This document shows positions 5,438-47,317 of a stretch of 64,000 bases of DNA, one piece after another. The notes beneath the pieces were generated by a model. It had not been told where the DNA came from, did not search any database, and saw nothing but the letters and a program-made list of their open reading frames with translations. The translations under genes were made by a program, and so were the position numbers. This DNA is from Daphnia carinata (lineage: Eukaryota > Arthropoda > Branchiopoda > Diplostraca > Daphniidae): positions 3,674,221 to 3,738,220 of the forward strand of contig NC_081336.1 of NCBI RefSeq assembly GCF_022539665.2. Direction: 5' to 3'. The first letter of the stretch is position 1. Each line of letters begins with the position of its first letter.

Positions 5438-6325
5438 TTAAGCAGCATCGGTGGAAGTCTCCGTTTCGCTGGCAATCGGGGCAGCAACGGCCTCAGCAAT
5501 CGATTCAGTTACGACCACAGCAGCTTCTGCGTCCTCGGTGACGACTTCAACTGGAATTTCAGCCTCTTTCACGGGAGCAGCGGCTTCAGTGGTAGATGGA
5601 AACGGATAGCTTGGCTTAGGGTACGACGGGTACGAAGGACGGGGGTAGCTAGGGTATGCTGGACGAGGATAAGCCGGGTAAGAAGGTCTAGGGTAAGTTG
5701 GGTAAGATGGTTCAGGGTAGGAAGCTTTAGGGTATGCCGGTGGAGCGTAAGTTGGCTTGGGGTAGGCCGGAGCAGGATAAGCGGGCTTGGGGTAAGCTGG
5801 AGGGGCATACGCGGGCTTGGGGTAGGCTGGATAAGATGGTTTGTATTCAGGGTATTTGGCTTCTCCCTCGTATTTCACATCGGCGACGTAACCGTATTCA
5901 TCAGCTTTGTAGGTAACAACCTGTCGTCTACCGTCCGGGAGCACGACGTAGTACGTACCACTCACGAGTTTGCCATCGCTTGTCTCTTTCTGTCCGAAAT
6001 CGTTGTAACTTGCCTGGTCCAGTACGGCCCAATCGAAGCTGTACGGCATCGGGGCCTGAACAAAATTACGAAAATATTAAGTACAATAAGCATCTCATGT
6101 TTCAACTCGAAATTCAGATGTAGACGAATGACTTACGTAATCGTAAGACTTTCCGTAAGCAGGAGGAGGATAAGCCGGTGCCGGATAAGTTGGTTTCGGA
6201 TAGTAGGGCTTTTCGGAAGCCAAGGCAACTACGACCAACGTTGCGATGATGACGAACTGTTTGTAAAAGAAAATTATTAAATTTTGGTTTCCAAAATTCC
6301 AATGAAAAATGCAACTCACTTTCAT
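5438..6325 (-). CDS. R&R cuticular protein with YP repeats and acidic tail
   Basis: This is the only minus-strand cuticle gene in the window, about 247 residues. Exons (descending) are 6325-6320 (ATG AAA), 6256-6137 and 6055-5438, with phase-0 introns. Exon 2 encodes the signal core FVIIATLVVVALAS and a short YYPKPTYPAPAYPP linker. Exon 3 starts APMPYSFDWAVLDQASYNDF and has the R&R core (GTYYVVLPDGRRQVVTYKA, DEYGYVADV). It continues with about 18 YPxPAY/YPRPSY units and ends in an acidic Glu/Val/Ala tail finishing TSTDAA. The nearest relative is 14967-15846, which matches in promoter, exon layout, repeat order and tail. The pair is therefore a duplication with one copy inverted. Likely role: structural, chitin-binding exoskeleton protein. 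Confidence 0.9.
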
Positions 6326-37112: not shown

Positions 37113-37931
37113 ATGAAGAAGGTACGTGATCAACAGCATTTTCTGCATTTTTTGGAAAAGTAGTATTTAATTAATTCAAAATTGCGGATTAACTTGTTTA
37201 CCTAGACCAAGTTTTCCAAAGAAAAGCGTAATTTATTACTTCTTTCCACTTACGTTCATCATCCAGTTCGTTCCTTTGGCCACATTGTTTGCTGCGGTTA
37301 TGGCTGCCGCTGATCCATCCTATTCCAATCCGCCATACCCAGCTTTGAATGCTTATCCATCTGTAGCTCCAGCTTATCCAGTCCCGATTCCACCTTATCC
37401 AGTACCAGTTCCATCTTATCCTATTCCGGCTTATCCTGCACCGGTGCCTGTCCGCTCAAAGCCGGCCTACGAACAGCCAGCTTACAGCGAACCTGCTGAA
37501 GAAAATCACGTAAGTTCTTTATTTCAAATTCAAGTAATGTCAAATATAATTTACTGTTTACCGAACGATTATTATAGCCACCGATGCCATTCAATTTCGC
37601 CTACGAAGTTAAGGATGATGCTAGTTACCAAGACTTTTCACACAAGGAGGTCAGCGACGGCAAAGTCGTCACTGGATCTTACCATGTCGCTCTTCCCGAC
37701 GGTCGCACCCAAATTGTTACTTACAAAGCTGACGAAAATGGATACGTTGCTGATGTGAAATACGAGGGAGAAGCCAAGTACGACGAGTACAAACCCGCCC
37801 CAGCCTACCCCAAGCCCGCTTACCCAGCTGAGCCCGCCTATCCCAAATCAACTTATCCAGCGCCATCATACCCAGCGCCAGCTTACTCAGCGCCAGCTTA
37901 CCCAGCGCAATCATACTCCATGCCAGCTTAA
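37113..37931 (+). CDS. R&R cuticular protein with premature stop in its tail
   Basis: About 201 residues as read. Exons are 37113-37121 (ATG AAG AAG), 37267-37509 and 37578-37931. Exon 2 has the signal core FVPLATLFAAVMAAAD and a YPVPIPPYPVPVPSYP linker. Exon 3 starts PPMPFNFAYEVKDDASYQDF with R&R core GSYHVALPDGRTQIVTYKA and DENGYVADV, then YPKPAYPAEPAYP repeats. The stop TAA at 37929-37931 sits where the repeat predicts TAC (CCAGCTTAACCAGCC). The following 25 codons are open in the same frame, continue the Tyr-Pro pattern and end in TAG at 38007-38009. The ancestral protein was therefore probably 26 residues longer. AATAAA lies at 38093-38098. Sister gene: 26335-27604, with a shared upstream block. 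Confidence 0.88.
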
Positions 37932-38098: not shown

Positions 38099-39141
38099 TA
38101 TAGCTGTCGATTTAGAAAAGAACTTTGTGTGCTGTTCCATTCGATTTTCGCCCTTTCTTTTATACCACAACTGCTATGCAATTATTTTTTCCATGAATCT
38201 ACAACTAAAAAACAATCGAAATACTAAACAGGAAAACGATTCCCGTTTACAGCACGTATTGAAACTGTCATGGCTCTTAAATTCGCGCAGCGATGCCGAC
38301 AAACCTGGTATTTTCGCTAGTAATGAACGAAAATTTTCAAAGGTATTCCTAAAAAAAAATGTTAGTCAACGCTTATGTGCGCCATTTTCGATGTCCTCGT
38401 CAGTTCACGCTTTGTCGTGTTTCACAAGTTCGGGATAGGCTAAGTATAAACTAGGACATTTGCTGGCGATTTGCATCGATCACGAGAAATGATAAAAATA
38501 GATTAGTCTGTTGTCCTTACTTTCCCATATTAGCAATCCTGAATTCCTCGTCCGCATACCAAGGCTGTCTCGTGATTTTTATCGTTTGCACCACAACTAA
38601 TCAAATCACGAAGGCTGCAATAGATTCCATCAACGCGATCTTGCACGTAGCGCACCTTGCATAGTTTTAAAAATATCTTACGCTTTCATTCAATATTAAT
38701 TTCTTAATCAAAACGATTACCATCCACCAGAATTCCAATCAGGTTGACAAGGTGATCCACGCTATTAGCGTCACGATGCTTGGTCATACTGAGAGGTCGT
38801 TCTCATTGGGCATGCGAAGCGAGAACTCCGCTATTGATTCTGTCCTTCGTGTAGCCAATGACCAAGGTAAACACCTAGATCGTGTTAGTACTTCAAAAGT
38901 GAACGCAAAACAAATTATTCCTGACGGGCAAATTAGATCCCTTTATGACAATAACTTAAACAAAAAACAATCCTTTTTAAAAATTCTTACTCATAAATAC
39001 AAAAGTATAAGCTCAACATGATGTAAACAAAATTAGATCACGGTTCTGCGTCAAAAAAGGGAAACAACTGAAACATTTTTGTTAGCAGCTTTTCGTGATT
39101 AAATGTTAACATTCCAACAAAAATCCCTTGGCAACAATTCC
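38099..39141. other. intergenic region downstream of the SNO-like gene
   Basis: Spacer between the plus-strand cuticle gene and the 3' end of the minus-strand SNO-like gene. I looked here on the minus strand for the missing C-terminal exons of that gene and found none I could align. The plus-strand open frame at 38752-39021 was not recognised. Confidence 0.4.
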
Positions 39142-42100
39142 TTAACATCGTACCTTCAATTTTTTGGACTGAGTCATGATTACTGCGATAGTATCCGTAA
39201 AATATTTGAAAATTTTGGTCTGAAGTTCGATAGGGATACCAAGAATCCGATTACGGAATTTGGAAATATTGGTGTAATCTTTATCCAGTGTCAAAGCCTT
39301 TGCATTCCTTTCACTAGGGCAAATCAGTCCAACGCTAATTAGGGCAACTTTCAAATCTAATATATGAATAATAAACAAAAGAACTAATTATAAGAGCGAA
39401 TAAATCACATAAGCGATATTAGAAAATAAAAAACTACCTTTGAAAAAATTTCCTGGATAATCAACAGGAGGTGGAACTATGGGTTCTTCAAAACCAAGTA
39501 TTGCGTTCATTACAGCATCAAGCGCTGCCCGTCCATCTTTTGTGTCAAAATCAAATCTGAAGCGACCAGACATTTCAAAAACAGAGCCACGTGCAACTGC
39601 GCCAAGGTTAATGAGACGATTGGCGATGACTGATGCAAAAAGCCTCTCACCGGCCAAATCTGAGGCTAAGAAAACATACTCAGGAGCTGTAACCTAAACA
39701 GAAATCCAATAACATAATTTAAATGCATTTTAGGTAAATTATGCAGGCTGCTTAACACGATTTACTTGATTACTGCGGTGTGTCCGACCCAGCTGTTGCA
39801 ATGTCCGGTCACTATCCAAAGACAAGTCAAGTGGAATGTGGAGGCGAGTACGCTGATTTTTCACTCGTCGATCAGCCTGGTTAAACGCAAGTTTTCATTA
39901 TTTTATGCCTTAATACACAAATCGTAAGAAGAAACACAAAAAAGAACTCGCACATGAAGTGAGATTCCGTTGCTGACAGTCTCAGAAATAATGGCAATGT
40001 TCTTGTTGCCATTCATAAAACGTTCTTTCTCGTGCAAGTTGATCTTTTCTAACGGGACGCCAGTCTCCGAACGAGATTCGTACTGTACCTGAAAGTAAGT
40101 GGAAGGATAAGTGAATTTTAAATAGTTTCTCTTTAGCATTACGAGATACCAAGCCATCATTTTTCTGAACGACACGTCCTTTTCGTTCAGTAATTTCTGC
40201 CACGTTTTCAGGGCCTCCCAATTCGTCGACGAGTTCATCAAGGACATTTCGTGGAAGCATAGCTCCAAGCTTCTCGATTTCTCCCAGCAGTTGCTCCTTG
40301 ATCCAAGACGTCTTCTCATGCAAACTCATAGGATCTTTATCCTTCCCTTCATCCGACTTTTCGAGCTCTTCGTTTGTTTCATCATTCTGTTCACTCATTT
40401 CATAATCTGAAGTATGGTCGGCTGGATTGGCTTTCTTCTTTGTTTCACTCTTGTCGGTGCGCCGCATACAACGTTTCCGTTTTGTTCCACAACTTCCTAA
40501 ATCTTTAATACCTCCAATGATTAGTGCCACAAACTGTTTATTTAAAAAAATTTTATTTACCATGGCCTCCTTTCTGACATGTTAGGCTTACATCCAGTAC
40601 ATCTCTTAAAGTGGCACTTCTACTTGACACGCCTTTTGAACGACTTGTCGCTGGGAAATACTTCTGGATTAACGACAGCAAGATCCTTTTCGTGGGTGAA
40701 ACAAACTCCGATAGTTCACCTTGGCTATTGGTCTGCTCAAGTGTGCGTGCTTCGGCCGTTGAATGGAGGCCAATCACGACGCATTTACCACATCTGACAG
40801 CCTCACTAGCTATCTTGACCGCATATGATACTTTAGCCGAGATGCACAGGCACTTGAAAAACCTCTGATGTGCCAACCAAAATTGCGTCCACATTGTTTG
40901 GCGTTCTCTTGGTTGGGCATTTACGAGATCTGCCACCTCTGCAAAACACTTTCGGAACTCAGTCCACAACTTAATAGAGTTGCCATACACCTTGGCCAGC
41001 TTTGGCGACAGAACCACTTCTTTGATTTTAACGTTGGCGCCCTTGTAAGAAAGTTGGCGAGCAATGTACATCCCGCATTGCTTCATTTTTCGCACCATGA
41101 CTTCAACATCGTTCGCCTTACTTTTTTCGACGGCTAAAACGAAGCTGCTAAACTCTGTGGTGAAGCATAAAGTTTTGTTATGATTGATTGGATTTCAAAA
41201 AAGGAAGATTACCTCTTAACGATGTACCCTGTCCCCAAAGACCGAGACGTACCATATACGCCATTTTGCGGGGTTCTGAAAATCCAGTCGAAGAAATATA
41301 GACTACTCTCGCATTTGGCAATTTTTTCTGCAACACAGAGACGGCCAAATCTGTTTTACTTATCTTGCTGATAGCCAGCGCTTTCCCTTCGTTATGACAT
41401 TCATCAAAGATGATGACACCATCAAAATCTTCATGAAACCACTTTGACAGCTGATCAAGGCGGGTCAGGCTAGTTTCAGCGGATCTGGAGACCCCGATCA
41501 AATTCGAGTAGGCACAGAATAATACACCCTTTTCCGGGATTTCTGAAGAACAAGTGTCTCCGGTAGATACGTTTTGGTACTTCAATTTGTTCAAGGCATG
41601 AACAGCGATTTCACGGGCTCCAATGTCTTGCAAATCCCGCTCGGCATCATTTTTGAGATCATTTGATGATGAGATCCATATGGCTTTGTAGCGTCCTTGT
41701 TGGTAATTCTCGAAAATAATGCCAGCAGCAATTCGACCTTTACCGACACCAGCGCCGTCTCCTACAAGGTATCCAGCGCGGGAGCCATCTGGTAACTTCC
41801 GTTCGTGCCTCTGAGACGCATGGGTGATTGCTTCCAACTGCATAGCTGAAAGTGCTCCACTGTCTATACATTTCTTAGGAAGTGATAGTTTATACCAGAT
41901 GTCTGGCGAGTTCACACTGGCCAATGAAGTAGTTTCAACGATCGGATTGGGATGCCGCGCTCCTTCAATTTTAACAGCTACGTAATCTACATAACTTTCT
42001 ATTTCCTTGTCTGTTTCCACGTTTTCTTCATCTTCACTTTCATCTAATGAGATGCAGACGACTTCTTTCTTTGTTGCAACTGGAACGTCCAGCATTGTTT

Positions 42101-43389
42101 GAGAAATTTCCATTCCAGAGCACTCGGTCGATAAAGAATCTTCTGCAGGCGCAGTAACGTTAACGGGCATCATGCTTTCTGACGTGAGAACATCTAAGTT
42201 CGGTGCTTTTCTTGTATCGATTGGCCTAAGGTTATCGGTAGCTCCCTCGTGAGGAGAGTAACCTGGAAACAGTTCAATAAATTAAACGAAATGGTCAAGA
42301 TATATCGTATATAGTTCAACATTACCATTTTCACGTACTAGGTCCTCTGACTTGTTTTGTACAATACCAACATTTTCGATTTGTGGTAATTTATCATTAG
42401 AGTCCTCCTTTTGCGGTTCACCGACATTGTCATTTTGTATCATATAATCTAGTGGCATCTTCCTATGGTAGTAAACCATGAAAACGTTACTTACAGAGAT
42501 GAGTTAGAAGTAGTTCTAGGTTACTCACTTGATGAGATCAACAATTCCCAGTTGGAAAAAGTGCCAGCTTAAATCTTTTCCATCAGGACACTTAAGCTTA
42601 ACCACTTTAACTGAATCCATCACGTCTTCCACTACTTCCATGATGAAGACATTGGATTTTTTATCAAAAAAATTGATAAGCTTTTGTTTTGTTTCTTCTT
42701 CCCACATCCCTCTTTGACTGCGAGGAGTGACGTCTGCTAATTTTACTTTGTAAGCAAAAAATGGGCGGCAGCTAAAAGCCGCATCGATAACTTTGCACGC
42801 GTTCTGAGATCGATTGACCCGAATTTCATCTCCATAGTCAACGAAATGGACTCCAGTGTCGCTTTCTGTAACATCGGTGATTCGACATCGGTAATAACAT
42901 TCGTCGTAGGGCCACTTGGCGAGGCAACTCATTCCTGTTAAAGGCACTGAAATTGATTTGCAATTGACTGCTGATGTTTGGATTTCTTCCATCATAATCT
43001 GTAGAGATTCCATCGAACACGTGTGTTGGACATATATTTCGTCCGGGGAAATCACATGTGAAACTAGAACTTCGTTTGTGTTCAAATACGATGTCTTCGG
43101 ATTCGTAAAGCATTTTTCTCGTAAACTGCGTCTAGGTCGAGCTTCGTTCCATGCCTCTCGATTCAGTCGGGTTTTCGGTGGTGTACGGCCTGTTAATAAT
43201 TTAAGTATTGAGTAAATACAAGCTAGTAAGACAAGTATGGACAAAAAGACCTTTAAAACTGGAGCCGATTTGGCGAGATGGTGAGCCAAAATAGTGGCGG
43301 TATTCTCTAGTTCCAGGTGATACTACAAGCAACTGCATCCTGGGTGGGTGACGGCGTGAAGAAGTACATACGTCCCCAATACGTTTCAT
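39142..43389 (-). CDS. predicted TM-Tudor / strawberry-notch helicase fusion
   Basis: Ten exons on the minus strand: 43389-43372, 43322-42529, 42462-42326, 42262-41213, 41154-40592, 40533-40150, 40088-39954, 39876-39766, 39693-39438 and 39356-39142. All introns are GT-AG, 49-81 bases, and frame-compatible; about 1220 residues. Residues 29-49 form a membrane segment ([20 protein letters not shown]). Residues 88-270 resemble an extended Tudor domain of the TDRKH/Papi type ([39 protein letters not shown]). Exons 4-10 match the SNO/SBNO family: Walker [10 protein letters not shown] (484-492), DECH box (603-606), [57 protein letters not shown] (1054-1064), [15 protein letters not shown]. Departures from the family: GKGRIAAG for GKGRTIAG, DECHNEG for [16 protein letters not shown] for ASATGASEP. 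The C-terminus stops soon after the FKYFTDT motif, so roughly 200-300 family residues are absent. Alternatively the Tudor part ends at the in-frame TGA (42527-42525) and a separate SNO paralogue starts near 42479. Confidence 0.72.
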
Positions 43390-44858: not shown

Positions 44859-47317
44859 TCAGTTTTTAAACTTGTTAACGTTAATAATTGTAGCTCTGAC
44901 TTTGTGAAAGTGAAAAGCAATTAGGAAGGCGCCCACAACCGCTAGCACCAATCCTATGGCGAAGAGTGTCCAAAGCACAATTTCGATGACAGTGAACAGA
45001 TTAAACTTTTCCGCATTTGCGTCATCTATCATGGCGTTCTACACATACAATTAGCCTCAGGTTAACAGTAACAAAATTAAAACAAGGTTACATCGTATGA
45101 CCTACCTCTTCGTACCAAAGTACAGGTAAGAAAACTCTTCCCTGTAGATTCGCTGTGCCCGACAGGCGAGTTTTCCGAACATCGATACTTAGTTGAACTC
45201 GTTTAGACGCATACAGCAAAGTATTCGTTCGCTGCGTGTACAAACAGAACATATGCGATAATTTACCATTGTTTCAAAATGAAGGAACACTGACCTCCTC
45301 TAAAATCAAATAAGTTTCATGTTTCGCTTTGTTGGGGCTCAGCCCTTCTACTCCGTTGATGTACCTGGGATCGCCGTTAAAAAAATGCGGATTGGAACCA
45401 ATCAACGGAGCTCCTAAACACACAAAAATAAGTAAATTTTACAACTCAGACTTCCCAAATGTAAGTAGTTCTCTGCTTACCTCCATAACAAGCTCCGATG
45501 AAAAGGGCACCAGTGTTAGGACATGTTCCTTCATCGTCTTCGTCTAAGCAAAAGCATTCATTTTCTGGCGCGTTTGTTCGGTTTTCCAGCACCGATTTTG
45601 GAAGAATGAATCGCCGTGCCGGCAAGTCTCGAAATGTTTCGTGTTGTTCGTAAACAGTGTAAACCGTCCTGTGCGAAACAGTCAGTTGAAGAAAACGAAT
45701 TTAATCAAATTGAGCTAAAATGATACACTGTTTTCTGCAGCTTACCGACACAAATCAGTTTGATAAATCCAAATCTTGTCATCAACATCGATGCCATATG
45801 GAAATACGGTTCCTTGGGGTAGTTGGTTAAGAAGGACAAATTTTAATTAACTGTACAGGTATTAAATATAAAAAATTTTAATGGGAGTTTCGTACCATCC
45901 GTTCCTTGTATTTCGTTACAATAGGATTTTTCTCCTGGCCAGTAGGGCAGGTACGCAGAAGAGTTTTCAAGGGTTTTACCCCAAGCTTCAATATTAGCAA
46001 AGAGTCGGTAGTCGGCTGTGCCTCGGTTGACTAGAAAAAGGCCATCGTTCGTGTCATTTTTCTGCATATCGGATTGCAACAAGAGACAACGTTTTACATT
46101 ATTGATGTGCCACCAAATCACACGCGGAAAAGGCAAAGTAAGTAAACTGAATGGGAAGCTAACCGCTTTGAAAAGACCTAGTGTTACGCCCTCATCGATG
46201 ATGTCCGGTGGTAAATCAGGTAAAAATGGAAGATCGGGTGGCCTGTCTGGAAAAAATGGAGGCCATGGATTAAAGATATCCTGAATCCTTAGATACCTGT
46301 ATAGGGAAGAAAAAAAAAGTACAGAATTAAAATTTCAAGCACCAGCTAACTGAAAACTTTTCCTACTTACAGCTCAACGTACGTATCCAGTGGCCATCCT
46401 TTAAATATCAGCTCATCTGCTGTGACTGTCATGAAAACAGATTCGCCTCTTTCTTTCAAAAAATTGTCAATCAGATTGACTGCTACATCGGCAGCACTAT
46501 CGTTAGTTGGCAAGCGATCCAAATATGATGAAACGGTCTGCAAATAACAAACCACATCTTTACTCCAGCGATTTCAAATTTCACGAGAGAAATCGTTGCC
46601 AGCGAAATTACATAGGAAACGTATAAATTGTTGATATTCTAAATGAAACTCACCATGTAAATAGGGTTGACGGTGGTGATTACATCATCGAGGCTGAGGC
46701 CTGGACCGCTCGTATCTTTCTCAATGCATTCAAACCGATAAGTTACCGATCACACTAATGCTACTTTAAATTCAGTTGCATGGCTAAGATATTTTTACCT
46801 TTGCTGAAATAGTACAATCGATGCTCTCTGTAATAAACACGGTCTGGGGGATTTTCTTCAACGTTAGTGTCCTTATTGCGATACTCCCTTCAGACAAAAT
46901 ACAGAAATTAAAAACATGGCATAATACCAGCAATGTAATAGCATGTTGTTACCTGTACGAATAAGGTCCGAGTTCGACAACAATGGGTTTCGTACCGTTT
47001 CGAACGACATCTTCATAATTCGTGCAATTGAAAATGTAAAAATCAGTGTAAATGGGGTACGGAGGATCATGCCATAAATTCCAAACGAAGTTGCCCTCTT
47101 CCAGAACCAGAGTCTGCGATGAAAATTGACAACATGAAATGCTTTTGATCCCTTGTTTAAGCAATGTTTTACGACCTTAAAATGAAATTACCTTCTTGGA
47201 TACGCTGGCAATGATCCCTGGCATTGCCGCCCATCCTATAATCGCAATCACAATCGTAAACACAGTTCCGAAAATGGTAACAATTAGCCCATTTTTGTAC
47301 AGCGATTCAATGCACAT
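44859..47317 (-). CDS. CD36 / scavenger receptor class B family protein
   Basis: Complete twelve-exon gene, about 527 residues, the usual length of the family. Exons (descending) are 47317-47192, 47113-46953, 46887-46799, 46715-46654, 46537-46371, 46296-46164, 46061-45896, 45812-45746, 45668-45481, 45413-45295, 45231-45106 and 45038-44859; phases agree throughout. Topology is typical: an N-terminal membrane segment (GLIVTIFGTVFTIVIAIIGW), a large ectodomain and a C-terminal membrane segment (IEIVLWTLFAIGLVLAVVGA). Landmarks are DPPYPIYTDFYIFNCTN, PIVVELGPYSYREYR, NDTNDGLFLVNRG, AYLPYWPGE, NEIQGTDG, and six ectodomain cysteines (SYC, DLC, ECFC, GTC, GAC) in the family pattern. N-glycosylation sequons occur (NCT, NGT, NDT, NSS, NRT). 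Members of this family bind lipids, lipoproteins, carotenoids or apoptotic cells (known). The specific ligand and subclass (emp, croquemort, SNMP or SR-B) cannot be decided here. Confidence 0.92.

Follow-up and report, generated by a model that had tools for sequence, protein, structure and literature searches.

Several described proteins combine a Tudor domain with an RNA helicase, and in Spindle-E/TDRD9 and TDRD12/Yb this helicase is of the DEAH or DEAD type. Strawberry notch (SNO), SBNO1 and SBNO2 have another ATPase, composed of the domains AAA_34 and Helicase_C_4. Here we describe a gene on the minus strand of a 64,000-nucleotide stretch of the Daphnia carinata genome (contig NC_081336.1, positions 3,674,221 to 3,738,220, hereafter the window) that is predicted to place a single extended Tudor (eTudor) domain before an ATPase of the SNO type. 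The usual target of this type of Tudor domain is methylated arginine in germline proteins.

The locus resembles each of the known systems in part. It has in common with SNO, SBNO1 and SBNO2 both ATPase domains and the ATPase motifs, as well as six intron positions of the canonical D. carinata gene, whereas in its product a Tudor domain replaces the canonical N-terminus, no SBNO domain (PF25373) is present and evolution has been much faster. Like Spindle-E/TDRD9 and TDRD12/Yb, it would unite a Tudor domain with a helicase-like ATPase of superfamily 2, but the domain order is different and the ATPase is of the SNO rather than the DEAH type: its Pfam matches include no DEAD/DEAH model, only AAA_34, Helicase_C_4 and ResIII. 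The eTudor type also links it to Drosophila maternal Tudor and to MYND-Tudor (Vreteno-like) proteins, which provide its best structural matches and its nearest paralogues in the genome (C2:5973650 and C7:5866541); as far as compared, those proteins are scaffolds without a helicase domain, whereas the fused protein has one Tudor domain and an ATPase. TDRKH/Papi likewise has an extended Tudor domain, together with a transmembrane anchor and a KH domain that the fused protein lacks. Single extended Tudor domains of Bombyx Vreteno can connect two factors of the PIWI-interacting RNA (piRNA) pathway, according to a passage of PMC10711660. Finally, passages of PMC5040591 describe FORGETTER1 (FGT1), the Arabidopsis SNO orthologue, as a partner of chromatin remodellers in which an SNO helicase is combined with a domain of reader type; this plant protein carries a PHD finger instead of a Tudor domain, and carries it internally (amino acids 667-757 as cloned). 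A reader domain joined to an SNO protein thus has a precedent.

A predicted Tudor-SNO fusion gene

Eleven exons joined from 43389 down to 38803 (Table 1) give a translation identical, letter for letter, to a public D. carinata protein of 1236 residues (P0001), retrieved by a protein search with the translated gene and named 'protein strawberry notch-like'. Splicing is here that of gene models, not of RNA. The Tudor domain and the SNO ATPase proposed by the first-pass annotation were both recovered by Pfam in the translated product: TUDOR at residues 83-198 (E 8e-16), AAA_34 (PF13872) at 415-720 (E 1.6e-115; 385.7 bits against a 27-bit cut-off), overlapped by a ResIII match, and Helicase_C_4 (PF13871) at 946-1213 (E 1.4e-85, covering profile positions 1-263 of 271). 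Both ATPase matches place the protein in the SNO family.

The same architecture is found in D. magna, the other Daphnia species in which the protein search recovered the fusion. Its homologue, 'protein strawberry notch isoform X1' (P0002), aligns to 96% of the query with 82% identity and carries the same domains, each of the two proteins comprising one Tudor and two SNO ATPase domains without a C-terminal SBNO domain. NCBIfam assigns no family to either. Among 120 of the 182 matches listed in the search with the translated gene, a reading of the table found TUDOR in these two proteins only, and when residues 1-420 were used as the query, 2392 scored candidates yielded four proteins, two fused and two multi-Tudor. 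The canonical SNO proteins of D. carinata and D. magna are themselves missing from the 120 matches listed, and the protein database seems patchy; that it holds no fused protein of D. pulex or D. galeata therefore means little. The junction itself reads as first annotated: the Tudor exon ends at a GTGAGT donor, the 66-nucleotide intron closes on TAG, and the next exon opens in the frame that runs into the SNO-like open reading frame. The exact public model, the D. magna homologue, the continuous frame and the canonical splice sites support the prediction of one gene encoding a Tudor-SNO fusion.

Other parts of the first model needed correction. It spanned 39142 to 43389 with introns of 58-81 nucleotides; the start stands and so does the size range for the first nine introns, but the last intron measures 279 nucleotides, the public model splicing at 39153 and ending with an exon at 38874-38803. 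All ten introns are of the GT...AG type. An in-frame TAA (43401-43399) precedes the start codon, and in the ATG frame exon 1 is identical to D. magna at 36 of its 46 residues. The final 24 residues of P0001, encoded beyond the 279-nucleotide intron, are absent from P0002, which stops at the preceding KK; the C-terminal end may be mis-modelled in one of the two species.

The Tudor domain had also been called membrane-anchored and of TDRKH/Papi type, which the gene model contradicts. The hydrophobic stretch of 17 residues is the translation of intron 1 (43250-43190), spliced out in the models of both species, and P0002 joins the same residues across the site (VKG to RTPPK). This intron is 46% T and its donor, GTCTTT, looks weak by eye. 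The frame of the supposed anchor follows a stop codon that ends at 43323 and offers no methionine before or within the hydrophobic stretch, while translation from the ATG at 43389, in a different frame, would meet a TAA at 43203-43201 if the intron were retained. The open-frame hydropathy of intron 1 (2.46 over 17 residues) is the highest of the ten introns; introns 7 and 10 reach 1.89 and 1.97, so such stretches appear in the introns of this gene without meaning. In the spliced protein the maximum is 1.19 over 19 residues, with no N-terminal transmembrane segment of the TDRKH/Papi kind, and Pfam finds no KH domain at E 0.01. We conclude that the fused protein has no membrane anchor. Having neither a hydrophobic helix nor a KH domain, it is not TDRKH/Papi-like, and the idea that an SNO helicase is placed at a piRNA site on a membrane is left unsupported. 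A gene model starting in the anchor frame and ending at 39142 was replaced by the eleven-exon model.

The Tudor match, paralogue alignments that reach beyond the core into the flanking extension, and matches to eTudor structures identify the domain as an extended Tudor. Its closest relatives in the same genome are exons at C2:5973650 (32% identity, E 1.6e-24), in a gene with an additional Tudor match and a MYND finger, and at C7:5866541 (33%, E 3.6e-22), in a multi-Tudor gene. We take the layout of the former to be of the Vreteno/TDRD1 type. The best of eight PDB matches is Drosophila Tudor (4q5y, E 5.3e-13), followed by mouse or human TDRD1 and, last, by 5ygb/5ygc (named GH18329p, E 7e-4 to 9e-4), which we take to be Papi. 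In an alignment to 3nth/4q5y, the four aromatic positions of the predicted methylarginine cage (Table 1) are aromatic in both Daphnia species, D. magna matching D. carinata at all five listed residues, D167 included. The spacing of the cage, 6-17-3-2, is that of SND1 F740-Y746-Y763-Y766-N768, of which F740, Y766 and N768 are named in a passage of PMC3281842.

Table 1. Exons and selected features of the fused gene, in window coordinates
Feature	Position	Strand	Content
Exon 1	43251..43389	-	Start codon and N-terminal 46 residues without known domain (P0001 residues 1-46)
Intron 1	43190..43250	-	61 nt, GT-AG; removed in P0001 and at the same residue in P0002
Exon 2	42529..43189	-	Extended Tudor domain; Pfam TUDOR core 43082-42735
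Predicted methylarginine cage stretch	42822..42926	-	W139, Y145, F162, Y165 and D167, from alignment to PDB 3nth/4q5y
Fusion intron	42463..42528	-	66 nt, phase 2, GTGAGT...CATAG; separates the Tudor exon from the SNO part
Exon 3	42326..42462	-	Linker
Exon 4	41213..42262	-	Linker end and most of AAA_34; Walker A 41762-41733; DECH ends at 41394
Exon 5	40561..41154	-	AAA_34 end and middle region
Exon 6	40150..40502	-	Basic stretch 40488-40432 (resembling a nuclear localisation signal by eye) and Helicase_C_4 start
Exon 7	39954..40088	-	Helicase_C_4
Exon 8	39766..39876	-	Helicase_C_4, with 11-residue motif at 39798-39766
Exon 9	39438..39693	-	Helicase_C_4
Exon 10	39154..39356	-	Helicase_C_4 end
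Exon 11	38803..38874	-	Short C-terminal tail and stop; takes the place of the SBNO domain region of canonical SNO

The SNO half derives from an intron-containing copy of SNO

The D. carinata genome, the one animal genome that we searched, contains one other AAA_34/Helicase_C_4 gene, the canonical SNO at about 5,648,200-5,653,300 on C2, and a further weak match on C7. We modelled the canonical gene with 13 exons and 1386 residues, and it aligns over its full length with D. galeata SNO (P0004). Six introns of the fused gene share both alignment column and phase with introns of this gene, one of them, near residue 860, in a poorly conserved stretch. These shared introns show that the SNO half goes back to canonical strawberry notch by duplication at the DNA level, introns included, rather than by retrocopying. 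In a quick maximum-likelihood tree of 44 rows, P0001 and P0002 group with the D. galeata and D. carinata SNO proteins and two further sequences, with a Shimodaira-Hasegawa-like approximate likelihood ratio test (SH-aLRT) value of 98; the stem of the fused pair is long, at 1.44 changes per column.

Both ends of the canonical protein are gone from the duplicate. The canonical N-terminus is missing, and Pfam finds the SBNO domain PF25373 in D. galeata P0004 and in neither P0001 nor P0002. Its single match in the D. carinata genome lies at the canonical gene, and the window contains no credible match to the canonical C-terminus beyond the shared exon 10, and hence no lost C-terminal exon. PF25373 is usual in these proteins without being universal, since it is absent from 9 of the 120 matches listed (P0001 and P0002 included, and some perhaps fragments).

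A partial, rearranged copy of the exon 5-10 region and some introns of the fused gene was also found on C7 (L022 3613-5142; G000:C7, about 1,352,600-1,354,150). It consists of five pieces with 84-94% identity to the fused gene, adjoins a DDE_Tnp_4 transposase open reading frame (L022 2776-3399) and contains no Tudor part that we could find; it is probably dead. Canonical SNO (G000:C2:5648211-5653314) and the MYND-Tudor gene (C2:5973650-5974249) lie on the same contig, about 320 kb apart. On G000:C1, Tudor matches recur with equal scores on opposite strands at about 8,108,700-8,113,975 and 8,189,200-8,202,800, an arrangement that suggests inverted duplication of a gene with several Tudor domains.

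Conservation and competing explanations

We propose, as the probable though by no means certain explanation of the whole, that the locus is one gene, a lineage-restricted chimera in which a Tudor domain and an SNO ATPase duplicate form a soluble protein that is brought to methylarginine partners. The SNO gene was duplicated with its introns, the copy keeping both ATPase domains and losing the SBNO domain and the canonical N-terminus, and one eTudor domain of the Tudor/TDRD type is predicted before it. The Tudor domain may bind chromatin proteins, or germline ribonucleoproteins such as PIWI and Sm, by their methylarginine or unmethylated Arg-Gly tails, and bring to them the ATPase, which would act there, while canonical SNO would keep its ancestral role in Notch signalling and transcription. 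Because the basic stretch of the middle region is kept, we expect the soluble protein to be nuclear or in germ granules.

Several observations weigh against this explanation. An AlphaFold prediction of the Tudor exon from a four-row alignment was unusable (predicted local distance difference test score, 36.8). Both Daphnia species have D167 where Tudor and SND1 have Asn, and a passage of PMC3281842 reports that disruption of the hydrogen bond of SND1 N768 severely diminishes binding; with this key residue changed, methylarginine binding by the Tudor domain is possible but uncertain. P0001 and P0002 are both public gene models, possibly built by one pipeline, and could share a joining error. 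Neither exon 1 nor the stretch before the Tudor domain is conserved significantly above the linker (p 0.07 and 1.0), and the D. carinata branch is about twice as long as that of D. magna (0.17 vs 0.091). Finally, comparison with the C7 fragment reveals no excess of third-position changes (28/245, 23/246 and 24/247 over the three codon positions; noncoding 45/352), and such even changes show no recent constraint.

The foremost alternatives concern where the chimera would work. It might act beside canonical SNO as a nuclear transcription cofactor, its Tudor domain reading methylated histones or Sm rather than PIWI proteins. The retained basic stretch fits this, as does FGT1, which passages of PMC5040591 describe as nuclear and as binding histone H3 with its PHD finger; the Tudor type, that of germline scaffold proteins, speaks against it, and we regard this reading as tentative. 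The same Tudor type would instead suggest a germline or piRNA role, and a convergent counterpart of Spindle-E/TDRD9 built on an unrelated helicase, with the SNO ATPase captured by an eTudor domain and acting on PIWI/piRNA or other methylarginine-tailed ribonucleoproteins, is a similarly speculative idea.

The fused gene could also be real and yet a decaying or nearly functionless duplicate, which we think rather unlikely. Besides the long stem, the faster D. carinata branch and the even codon-position changes, this reading can call on the loss of the SBNO domain and a change of motif III from SAT to SST. The frame is nevertheless open across 1236 codons, interrupted by ten introns with GT-AG ends, and in a neutral simulation none of 200 runs remained free of stops at 150 or more substitutions. 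Between D. carinata and D. magna, identity is higher in AAA_34 (272/306; Fisher p against the linker, 8e-10), the middle region (190/225; 6e-6), Helicase_C_4 (240/266; 1e-10) and the eTudor domain (147/183; 8e-4) than in the linker (94/148), and the Walker A, DECH and QQLGRTxRSNQ (QxxGRxxRxxQ) motifs are retained in both species. The open frame and the conservation of the domains above the linker suggest a working gene, and the locus is most likely a functional, fast-evolving one.

Less probable still is that the gene predictor merged a small Tudor gene with an adjacent SNO paralogue, the two having separate or overlapping transcripts in life. The proteins are known as predictions, the same pipeline may have built both models, and ATGs at 42479 and 42458 lie near the start of the second part. 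However, the in-frame join is retained in two species, the next ATG (42479) comes 45 bases after the Tudor TGA (42527-42525), a spacing that the first-pass annotation had measured correctly, and the N-terminal 313 residues have no free-standing relative among 401 candidates of about 170-550 residues. That a TDRKH/Papi-like, membrane-anchored Tudor tethers the SNO helicase to mitochondria is scarcely credible: a hydrophobic open stretch does directly precede the Tudor code and the presumed Papi structures are among the PDB matches, but that stretch is an intron removed in the models of both species, its frame offers no start codon, there is no KH domain, and Drosophila Tudor is by far the better match.

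Surroundings, novelty and meaning

Many cuticle-protein-like open reading frames with Tyr-Pro repeats occupy the window at 2853-28000 and 37171-58000, and Chitin_bind_4 was confirmed in the two that were tested (37578-37931, plus strand; 5438-6076, minus strand). Upstream of the fused gene and on the same strand lie exons of the CD36 family (45843-47176, minus strand), of which the piece at 46949-47176 matches with E 2e-19 and the other two fall below the cut-off.

Judged by its predicted domains, the combination of Tudor and SNO is a new architecture built from known families, in a protein already public under a generic name. We found no discussion of this combination in the literature searched, which extends neither to subscription journals nor to preprints. 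A passage of PMC3656729 mentions strawberry notch and Tudor as separate genes, and one of PMC9175491 describes in D. magna a TDRD6-annotated piRNA cluster along with three helicase-gene clusters.

If the fusion is expressed, duplication followed by domain capture would have redirected a member of a conserved family of nuclear helicases, while the original copy was retained. To our knowledge, the biochemical substrate of SNO-type ATPases is not settled. Because this type of Tudor domain usually recognises methylarginine, its partner would indicate what these ATPases can act on, and the presence of the same gene in D. magna, a laboratory species, makes this testable there.

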